64,000 nucleotides of DNA from Zeus faber (Eukaryota; Chordata; Actinopteri; Zeiformes; Zeidae), in the NCBI GenBank assembly GCA_960531495.1, contig OY482863.1, positions 7,939,000 to 8,002,999 on the forward strand, in the 5' to 3' direction. Both the position numbers and the translations under genes were made by a program. The notes under the pieces are model-generated. The model was not told where the DNA came from. It searched no databases and worked only from the letters and a program-made list of their open reading frames with translations. Within the stretch, counting starts at the first letter, position 1; the number at the start of each line of letters is the position of its first letter. Below are positions 4,166 through 20,615 of this stretch, piece after piece.

Positions 4166-5878
4166 AGATATGAATATATCCTATATATTCCTATATCAGG
4201 AACCGGTGTGCGCTTACTGCACACCAGCAGACCACTGTCTGGAGGAGGGAACAAAAAAAACTCCACTTAAATTCTCTAATACCTCTTTTCCACTGCGGAC
4301 TTTGGCACATAATTAGACAGGAATATCCATTCATCCATATTCCATCATTTCATATCCGATTTAGAAACTAAAATCAGAAGTTATTGAATTTTCTTCCCAC
4401 ATGCGGGACCATGAAATGCTATGAGTGTCGGGACAGCTCTGCGCACGTGGAGCAGAGAACCCCCACACTCTGCGCCAGTCTCCGAGCCGCTCCAGAACCA
4501 CCTCAAGCCGGCATCCGAACAGGAGGAGCGTCCCTGCTGCCGAAGCACTGGGCCCGATGTGTGTGCACGGGTTAATTTGACATTTTTCACATGAAAGAAT
4601 ATTAAAGAAATTCACATATCTGTGGTCGTCGTCTATTCAGACAATGCTCAGACAATGTTCACAATGAGGTTTAGCAGAACACACAGTCACAACAACCAGA
4701 GGGAAAAACATCATAGTAATTTTTTATTTTTTTTTTACACGCAATGCAAGAACACTTGAACGACTAGTTTATACACAGAGAACACTACAAATCAATAATA
4801 GTTAATAATAAATCCAAAACCGCTCACAGGGAGGGAGAGGCCCCTCCCTCTCCGCTCCCGCTGTGATCGATTCAGGGCGGGGGGTTAGTTTCAGAACACT
4901 ATAAACTGCACTTCTACTACTACTACTACTACACAGTTTCAATGCTCAGATTTTTCTTGGCAGATTTGAAAAATAAATAAATAAAAATAAAATGTCTGTC
5001 ATTGATGCTAATCAGCGTTCAATGGAGTCGATCAATTAGCATTGACGAGTTAATCGTCAATCTGTCCAGCCACACACACACACACACACACACCCACACA
5101 CACCCACACCCTCCTCCTTTGGGCCTTTCTGCAGCCGGGGCTAGTTGAGCCAGAGGGATCTGAAAGCCCCAGTCAGGGGCTGTCAGCGGCCCCGTGTCCA
5201 ATTAGAGGGCCAGGCAGGTCCCCGCCGGCTCCCAGCAGCCTGACAAGCCGTCTGTCCTGCCGCTCGCCAACAGCAGGTGGTCTTTGATACCCCTTGCTCC
5301 GAGGGCCTGTGCGACTCCAGCAAAGTAATCAAATCTCCTTCCACTTGGTTTAAAAAAAAAAAACAACAAAAAAAAAAACAAGGAAACAAAACAAAGTGCA
5401 GCAGCATTCCCCGGCGTTGGATTCAACCTGGGTCCTTCGTCCTCTTCGTCATCGTTTTCAGACTTTCTTGGGGGGGTCTGTAAAACCGCCTTCCACTGAC
5501 CGGAGGCTGCGATTAACGATTCTCTCCATCATCCAAATTGTTAGATATGTTGAATTGGAGTTAAATTAAATTAGGACCCCCCCCCCCCTCCCGATGGACA
5601 CAGCTTGTTCCTGCCTGCGTGTCCCACCAGGCGGGAACAAGCCGTGTACAACGCTGATGCGGCTGTTTATTTTCATTTGTTTTTATGTTTTACGTTTGCT
5701 TTCTTGCGTTTGAAGGAACGCTCCAGAGCCTGCTTACATATTCATGTGTCCCCGTTATTTTGACAGATTCCGGTAGGCGCGCTCGCATGGTGTACGGGGG
5801 TATTGTTTGTATTCCTTTGCCAACCCTGCCTTACCTTTTCTCTCTCCGTCTCTCCAATCCCCCCCCCGTTCTCTCCAG
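4166..5878. other. Sequence upstream of the first visible rnpc3 exon
   Basis: This is presumably intron. A GC-rich block at 4395-4575 is open in both directions without a recognised product. A block at 5010-5300 is GC-rich and non-repetitive apart from a CA repeat (about 5072-5106). No RRM1-coding exon was found. A pyrimidine-rich tract leads to the acceptor at 5878. Confidence 0.45.
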
Positions 5879-18417
<12,539 letters not shown>

Positions 18418-19064
18418 GCCCGACAGGTGGGAGAAGTGAATCTGCCGTGCCTTCGCACCTGCATGCAAACGTCCGTCTGCGATTTCAAGCCGAATACCCT
18501 TTTGTAACGGTGCTTTTATTATTATTATTTTATTATTTTATTTTATTTTTACACTTTATTTATTCAAGATACGGTCCCTTGATAGCGTGCTCCGACAGCC
18601 TCGTTGTGTATCCTTGTTCTGGCATATCCTTTGGAAGTGTGATTATTGGAATCTCTTTGTGTGCGTGTGTGTGCGTGTGTGTGCGTGCGTGTGTGTGTGT
18701 GTGTGTGTGTGGTCGCGGCGACTTGATTTGATCCTGATCCACCAAAATCATATTGTCGTTCTGGCTCAAAAGGATCAAGCAGCTTGCTGAGGACATCTTG
18801 CTCAGCCTTTCATTTCTTTTTCATTTTTCTTTGTCATGGACACTCTTGTGTTCTTGCGTTTATTTCACTTTTAATCGTTTTTAAGGTTTCGAAGACGTCT
18901 TTTTTTTTTTTAACGTTTTCCAATCGTCTTGACTGTGTCTTCTACTCTGTCTGGCTCCGAATCACAGGGGGACTCGACTCACGGGAAATTGTCAGAAGTG
19001 GTTTTTTTTTGTTGTTGTTGTTTTTTGTTTGTTTGTTTGCCCCCCCCCCTTCCTCCGGTGTTTC
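18418..19064 (+). other. rnpc3: rnpc3 3' UTR and flank
   Basis: No further coding sequence follows the stop. I see no AATAAA or ATTAAA between the stop and the USSE, so the cleavage site for a short 3' UTR is not obvious. The stretch holds a T/A-rich tract (18510-18565), the USSE, a GT/GC microsatellite (about 18658-18711), and T-, TTG- and C-rich runs before the AATAAA at 19065. Confidence 0.6.
18608..18632 (+). promoter_or_regulatory. rnpc3: USSE: U11 snRNP-binding splicing enhancer in the rnpc3 3' region
   Basis: Two U12-type 5' splice-site motifs lie in tandem: GTATCCTT at 18608-18615 and ATATCCTTT at 18624-18632, starting 16 bp apart and 191 bp beyond the stop codon. Known biology: in U11-48K and U11/U12-65K genes such twin sites bind U11 snRNPs and, in 65K, switch from a productive short 3' UTR mRNA to long, nuclear-retained forms. 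Position, spacing and host gene all fit. Which splice sites it acts on here cannot be read directly. Candidates are the U12-type AG at 18348 or an AAG at 18566-18568 after a T-rich tract. Confidence 0.88.
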
Positions 19065-19070
19065 AATAAA
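19065..19070 (+). promoter_or_regulatory. Candidate polyadenylation signal AATAAA
   Basis: AATAAA lies about 650 bp past the rnpc3 stop, with a T-rich stretch about 20 bp downstream. It lies beyond the USSE, so it would serve a long 3' UTR form. Confidence 0.45.
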
Positions 19071-19120
19071 AGCTTCTGTTCAAACATTTTTTTGCGTCGC
19101 GGCTCGTATTTTGTTTGCAG

Positions 19121-19213
19121 ATCGCCCGCAGCCGGCAGCGTTCTTGTCGGGGCGGCCGAGCGGCGCCGCCTCGCCCACCCTCCGGCCCGGGCCACCCCGG
19201 GGAAGACGGGCGG
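19121..19213 (+). other. Exon-like GC-rich segment downstream of rnpc3
   Basis: A T-rich acceptor TTTTGTTTGCAG precedes 93 bp of CpG-rich sequence followed by GTACGT, a good U2-type donor. The segment is open in more than one frame but its translation resembles nothing I recognise. It could be a non-coding exon joined to long rnpc3 transcripts, the first trace of another gene, or chance. No coding function is claimed. Confidence 0.25.
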
Positions 19214-20615
19214 GTACGTACGGTGATGGAGCGGTATATGACAGGCAGATTGGATCGGCACCAGATGGCGGGGGAGGGGGGGGGGGGGGGGAGGACAGTC
19301 CCGAGACGGCGAGCAAACGAGCCGCTGTCTGCTCTGTAAAATTGCCGGAGTCGGGTTGGTTTACCTGCGCCGTATAATATCTGGCCGCCCCGTGACGTCG
19401 CCGTGGCGATGGACAAAAGACTCCAACAGAATGTATGAAACTGAACTGATTTTCTGCCTGTTGTTATACATGCACATTTCAGTGATGCATGTGCAGCCTG
19501 CTGTTAATATTTTATTGCAAGCTCGAATGAACGTTAAATTCCCTCCGAAACGTAGTGTCATTCATAGTTGGGTAAGTTTACTCAAGCTTGCTGTGAAGTA
19601 TCTGGTTCGCGCCCCCACAAGCAGGTCGACGGAGGATTGTTCCTTCATTTGAAATATTTTCACCCGGGTTTTTTTTACCTTGTACCGCATGTGTCCGGCT
19701 GTTGCCGACGGTAATGGTTTGTGCGTGCGCCCTCCTGTGTCAGTGCGTGTGTGTTTTTGAGAACGCATGCTCACTTCTAGTACAGGCTGGTAGCCACTGC
19801 TAAACAGGAAAAAACTAAACGGTATGGACTATAAACCGCCGGAAATGATAATAACGCTCATCATCATCATCATCGTCATGGTGGTCACTCGGGGTCGTGT
19901 GTGACTGTCCTCCTCCTTGGTCTTCGTGTCTGATTATTTCTATTTTGGATGCATACATTTATGGGTATCGTTCTGCGGCTGCGATCGAGATGTGTTTTCT
20001 GATCAGTTCTCACTGGCAATAGAAGCCATTCTAATCACTAGCATTAATTATTCATATTTAATGATATGAGCGATATAATGAATAAATTATTATATAATAT
20101 ATGGTATAATATGAATTCAGATACTCGACTGGATGCGGTGGCAAGTTTTTGTGGACTACTTTTTTTTTTTTTTTTTTTTTTTAAACTGTATTTTGTAAAA
20201 AGCTACACAGGTACTCGTCACCGAACGACCGAGTTCCGTTCCCACAGGCAGGTCGTAAAGGAAACTGGTCGATAAGCGAGGACCCGTGTTATTTCACGGT
20301 AAGGGGGCGTGGCTGGTATATACAGTGTATAAAGTGTATATATCGTGTATATGGCATATAAAGGGTGACGCGCGATGAGACGCTTGACGCTGCACAATAC
20401 AGACGGGTCGGAGAGCTGGTTGTTAAACGGGCAGGTCGCTAAGTGAGGAGCACCTGTAATATATACGTAATAACTTGGAGCAGCAACTTCATCACTGGAC
20501 CAACTGCGCCGAGTGGCACCACCGCGTCTACCATCACTTTTTGACGCCTTACTGCTTGTGGCCAATGAGGAACGTGGATTCAAGGATGTAATAAATATTC
20601 ATGAGGGTGACATCC
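19214..20615. other. Intergenic, no gene recognised
   Basis: It holds a G run (19267-19291), a CAT repeat (about 19859-19878), a poly-T run (20160-20182) and TATA-rich low-complexity sequence. Short open frames here do not resemble known proteins. Confidence 0.5.

Follow-up and report, generated by a model that had tools for sequence, protein, structure and literature searches.

A tandem of U12-type 5' splice-site motifs past the rnpc3 stop codon of Zeus faber, very probably a fish counterpart of the mammalian USSE

In the fish Zeus faber, the 3' region of rnpc3, the gene of the U11/U12-65K protein, carries two U12-type 5' splice-site motifs in tandem. We regard it as very probable that the pair works as a USSE and is the fish counterpart of the known element, and we give a probability of about 0.85 to the reading in which it acts through a 3'UTR switch of the mammalian 65K type. 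A USSE is described as a tandem of U12-type 5' splice sites in a non-coding part of the 65K gene (PMC5473595, PMC8329584), and the genes named as its carriers are U11/U12-65K and U11-48K (PMC6865273, PMC8329584). The feedback is summarised in a review as conserved in animals and plants, most of all in vertebrates (PMC3584512). The mechanism is not new, and the finding in rnpc3 is mainly what the known mammalian feedback switch would lead one to expect. Two points are added: a matched copy of the element in snrnp48 and, just before the USSE, a last coding intron of the U12 type.

The gene and its twin motif

Five exons in the window (the whole stretch of 64,000 nucleotides that was analysed), at 13833-14015, 14402-14496, 14758-14816, 15663-15795 and 18349-18417, give one open frame when joined. 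In the PDB, the C-terminal part that these exons encode matches 'RNA-binding protein 40' (3egn, E 3e-63; 5obn, E 9.7e-63), which we take to be the 65K protein. A search of predicted proteins returned 92 matches, including records from fish and tetrapods under the name RNA-binding region-containing protein 3 or RBM40. The gene had been called rnpc3 (U11/U12-65K) in an earlier note made from the letters of the sequence, and the 3egn match at E 3e-63 confirms the name. A search for rnpc3 in viral contigs gave 4 pattern matches, of which 0 were confirmed. Amylase is described as the gene that follows RNPC3 in mammals (PMC5473595); from 19 to 64 kb of the window, a weak test by eye of complexity-filtered open reading frames of at least 75 amino acids recognised no clear coding exon and no amylase.

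The end of the coding part and the twin motif lie as follows.

15663..15795, plus strand: last but one rnpc3 coding exon, ending ..YDKPLVV
15796..18348, plus strand: last rnpc3 coding intron, U12-type by sequence, with 5' splice site GTATCCTTTTT, the best U12 5' splice site of the window (15.6)
18327..18335, plus strand: candidate branch point of the U12 type, GACCTTAAC, 14 nt ahead of the 3' splice site, agreeing with 7/9 letters of TTCCTTRAY
18349..18417, plus strand: last rnpc3 coding exon, QFARSARPKPDAADAKKGAKSR, with stop TGA at 18415-18417
18608..18615, plus strand: first U12-type 5' splice-site-like motif of the putative USSE, GTATCCTT; U12 matrix score 13.7, rank 3 in the window
18624..18632, plus strand: second such motif, ATATCCTTT; U12 matrix score 14.2, rank 2 in the window

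The motifs stand 16 bp apart from start to start, and the first begins 191 bp past the stop; a check of positions bore out the places, the spacing and the distance claimed earlier. When every position of the window, on either strand, is scored with a U12 5' splice-site matrix, the highest score falls at 15796, the 5' splice site of rnpc3's own last coding intron, followed by 18624 and 18608. Both 8-base cores of the tandem are intact (that of the second motif, ATATCCTT, occupies 18624-18631), and the first motif has G at its ninth base against the T of the U12 consensus.

A U12-type intron directly upstream

RNPC3 is listed among the minor-intron-containing genes (PMC6865273). In Zeus faber the last coding intron begins with GTATCCTTTTT, which agrees with RTATCCTTT, and contains the branch-point-like GACCTTAAC, judged against the consensus TTCCTTRAY. 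Its end is poor as a U2-type 3' splice site, scoring 0.9 against 6.4-15.1 for the other four coding 3' splice sites tested. The predicted proteins point the same way. Among the 92, a pattern search completed by eye found 17 that continue past the exon end at 15795 into sequence that is not the next exon (P0029, missed by the pattern, was added by eye), and 16/17 read V-S-F at that place, as encoded by GTATCCTTT, the remaining one, P0073, reading V-S-Q. The V-S-F proteins include records from Prochilodus magdalenae (P0008) and Xenopus tropicalis (P0029). Since GTAAGTTTT would also encode V-S-F, this reading is support for a U12-type 5' splice site and not proof of it. With such an intron at the end of its coding part, the full-length 65K mRNA would itself require the minor spliceosome.

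A matching tandem in snrnp48

The zf-U11-48K family (PF05253) has three matches in the genome, two adjacent on C15 and one on C8. Because the family also matches Sulfolobus acidocaldarius, one of 14 control genomes, it is by itself insufficient to name snrnp48. The name comes from the exons of the C8 locus, which match the U11/U12 48 kDa protein (8r7n_F) at E 8e-54. The C15 matches (C15:17215684-17216926; L005, L007) are two adjacent CHHC fingers of the U11-48K type and, judged by eye, probably belong to gtsf1.

In the 20 kb around snrnp48 (C8:5133001-5153000, minus strand; L008, L009), the word RTATCCTT occurs exactly twice on the gene strand and once on the other. The two on the gene strand form a tandem, GTATCCTTTAATACCATATCCTTTT, in which GTATCCTT and ATATCCTT start 15 bp apart, compared with 16 bp in rnpc3, and they have the two best U12 scores of the 20 kb on both strands. 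The order, a G-type word followed by an A-type word, is common to both genes, and a local alignment of the two elements brings both words into register with a single gap. The snrnp48 tandem is intronic, about 400 bp before the exon coding DYSSQPLEVP, with U2-like 3' splice-site candidates 19 and 69 nt upstream. As far as sequence goes, both genes named as USSE carriers bear a tandem in this fish, and the copy in snrnp48 gives independent support to the USSE reading of the rnpc3 pair. The earlier view that the twin motif matches the USSE known in U11/U12-65K and U11-48K is thus upheld on three counts: the tandem form, the identity of rnpc3 and the snrnp48 tandem.

Candidate sites and the proposed switch

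All splice sites given here for the rnpc3 3' region are candidates by matrix score.

18424..18432, plus strand: candidate U2-type 5' splice site CAG/GTGGGA, 9 nt past the stop, intron start 18427; score 8.6
18546..18569, plus strand: candidate U2-type 3' splice site, 39 nt ahead of the first motif, exon start 18569; score 8.3
18863..18886, plus strand: candidate 3' splice site for a short 3'UTR, exon start 18886; score 7.8
18945..18968, plus strand: candidate 3' splice site for the shortest 3'UTR, exon start 18968; score 6.2
19065..19070, plus strand: AATAAA, the earliest poly(A) signal in 18418-20500

The 5' splice site at 18427 has the highest 5' score in 18340-19500 and lies within the top 0.6% of plus-strand GT sites. 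The 3' splice site at 18569 is the best within 200 nt upstream of the twin motif (top 1.9% of plus-strand AG sites); a weaker candidate with exon start 18599 stands 9 nt upstream of the first motif (score 3.8, top 12.8%), and a site at 19121, beyond the poly(A) signal, equals 18569 in score (8.3). The order in rnpc3 is a candidate 5' splice site after the stop, candidate 3' splice sites on both sides of the putative USSE and a common AATAAA. In the mammalian 65K gene, the USSE is described as steering splicing to an upstream 3' splice site, giving a long 3'UTR form retained in the nucleus, while use of a downstream 3' splice site gives a short 3'UTR form that is exported (PMC5473595); upstream site, downstream site and poly(A) signal come in the same order there as the candidates do here.

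Transferred to Zeus faber, the switch would run as follows. Plentiful U11 (or U11/U12 di-snRNP) would bind the tandem in the rnpc3 pre-mRNA, the twin sites not serving as splice donors themselves, and the bound particles would activate by exon definition a U2-type 3' splice site just upstream, most likely 18569. The 5' splice site at 18427 would then be joined to that site, and the resulting long 3'UTR, retaining the USSE, would stay nuclear. With little U11 present, splicing would use a downstream 3' splice site (18886 or 18968), the AATAAA at 19065 would set the end of the mRNA, and 65K protein would be produced. The tandem, its gene, the arrangement of candidate sites, the snrnp48 tandem and the 5' end of the U11 gene are the observed basis of this model. 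Binding of U11, activation of a 3' splice site, nuclear retention and the choice between 3' splice sites are carried over from mammalian work, and it is by the same analogy that U11 may control rnpc3 output in Zeus faber.

Among 40 scored of 40127 first-look candidates, one U11 gene was matched (C1:32966813-32966949, 110 bits), and its 5' end is AAAAAGGGCTTCTGCC, as expected. Pairing energy with U11 was tried as a discriminator and rejected. By duplex energy the two motifs rank 6812 and 5668 of 9307 prefiltered windows, so that they are not singled out; the U12 5' splice site of the last intron is mid-rank too (4009 of 9307), which makes the energy uninformative for the motifs. Nor does the RNA fold of 18570-18660 prove stabler than shuffles (z 0.97; 169/200 shuffles fold at least as well), Rfam has 0 matches in the window at gathering score, and a search of the predicted proteins for relatives of the USSE stretch (one query, four translated frames) gave no candidate.

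In Tetrapoda a suboptimal U1 site some 100 bp ahead of the poly(A) signal is reported as conserved (PMC5473595). No such site was recognised in Zeus faber, where 3.7 is the highest score among the 12 GT sites between 18961 and the AATAAA; as the reported site is suboptimal and a tetrapod feature, the 3'UTR switch may still operate here.

Weighing other readings

The least probable account is that two unrelated 8-base words have met by chance in an AT-rich, repeat-rich 3' region. To be sure, single words are ordinary: RTATCCTT occurs 4 times in the 64 kb on both strands, with 3.58 expected. Pairs are another matter. In simulated 3' regions modelled on the 649 bp of 18418-19066 (20000 each from first-order and second-order Markov models), at least one RTATCCTT appears in 441/20000 and 983/20000 cases respectively, and a pair with 2-32 nt between in 2/20000 and 1/20000, that is 3/40000 overall; simulated whole windows, read on one strand, have a pair in 2/300 and 0/300 cases. 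Across the 803 Mb of the genome, the exact-spacing pattern GTATCCTT-N8-RTATCCTT is found at 3 places and a reversed-pattern control at 17, so the pair is not over-represented genome-wide, and what is telling is its location, not its number. The chance account can point to the two further places with the same spacing, which are repetitive (L001 is a short tandem duplication, L002 an array of TATCCTTATC-like repeats), the rnpc3 3' region being the sole non-repeat place; a tandem of the same kind in snrnp48 of this genome speaks against it. Somewhat less improbable, though still quite unlikely, is an old USSE that has lost its function in this fish or retains it only weakly. The tetrapod U1 site that was not recognised and the G for T at the ninth base of the first motif would fit such decay, against which stand the two intact 8-base cores and a snrnp48 tandem that is intact as well.

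Equally improbable is that the twin motif mainly serves the U12-type last coding intron and promotes 65K expression rather than curbing it: U11 at 18608-18632 would define the 259 nt of 18349-18607 as an exon and so promote the U12-type 3' splice site at 18348. The upstream intron is indeed of U12-type sequence, and its own 3' splice site, 259 nt off, is the nearest constitutive one upstream of the motifs. A better U2-type 3' splice site intervenes, however, at 18569; the intronic tandem of snrnp48 is preceded, at 19 and 69 nt, by U2-like candidates; and the mammalian USSE is described as working on U2-type 3' splice sites and as reducing output (PMC5473595). The tandem in snrnp48 and the U12-type intron just before the rnpc3 element do make possible a combination, which we regard as no better than a tentative idea, in which the 3' end of rnpc3 holds two opposed sensors of the minor spliceosome in series, the U12-type last coding intron and a USSE 260 nt past its 3' splice site. 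The intron would need the di-snRNP for any 65K mRNA to be made, and the USSE would lower output at plentiful U11, while possibly also helping to define the last coding exon. Were this so, 65K output would be highest at an intermediate level of U11/U12 and lower above and below it.

Relation to known systems

The closest known system is the USSE of mammalian U11/U12-65K (RNPC3) (Verbeeren 2010, 2017), which shares with Zeus faber the gene and a tandem of U12-type 5' splice sites in 3' non-coding sequence. The likeness is one of described arrangement, not of alignment with human or mouse sequence, and the fish side of it is sequence only; the fish gene differs from tetrapod 65K in that no counterpart of the conserved U1 site close to the poly(A) signal was recognised. 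The USSE of U11-48K (SNRNP48), unlike that of rnpc3, is intronic, with coding exons on either side, and in mammals it is described as driving a poison exon and NMD instead of a 3'UTR switch (PMC5473595). In the cross-regulation of U1C and U1-70K by U1 snRNP, the level of an snRNP likewise controls splicing of the gene of its own protein (PMC3798272), the difference being that this belongs to the major spliceosome (PMC3798272, PMC5473595). Among the paper titles and abstracts listed we found no treatment of a fish rnpc3 USSE, which the original USSE paper of 2010 may show; a paper on rnpc3 in zebrafish and mouse (PMC12332006) has no mention of feedback, autoregulation or compensation.

If functional, the element would extend to a fish the 65K USSE switch that was worked out in mammals, in a setting that would allow tests in whole embryos, and would make with snrnp48 a matched USSE pair in one genome. 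The adjoining U12-type intron suggests, as a testable idea, that 65K depends on the minor spliceosome both positively and negatively.

Repeats near the two elements

A (TG)27 microsatellite at 18658-18711 starts 26 bp after the rnpc3 tandem. Past the snrnp48 tandem there is a CA-rich repeat (L008/L009, gene strand 8838-8940). Open reading frames inside snrnp48 (L008/L009, reverse complement 5364-6407) look by eye like pieces of transposase, presumably of the Tc1/mariner type.
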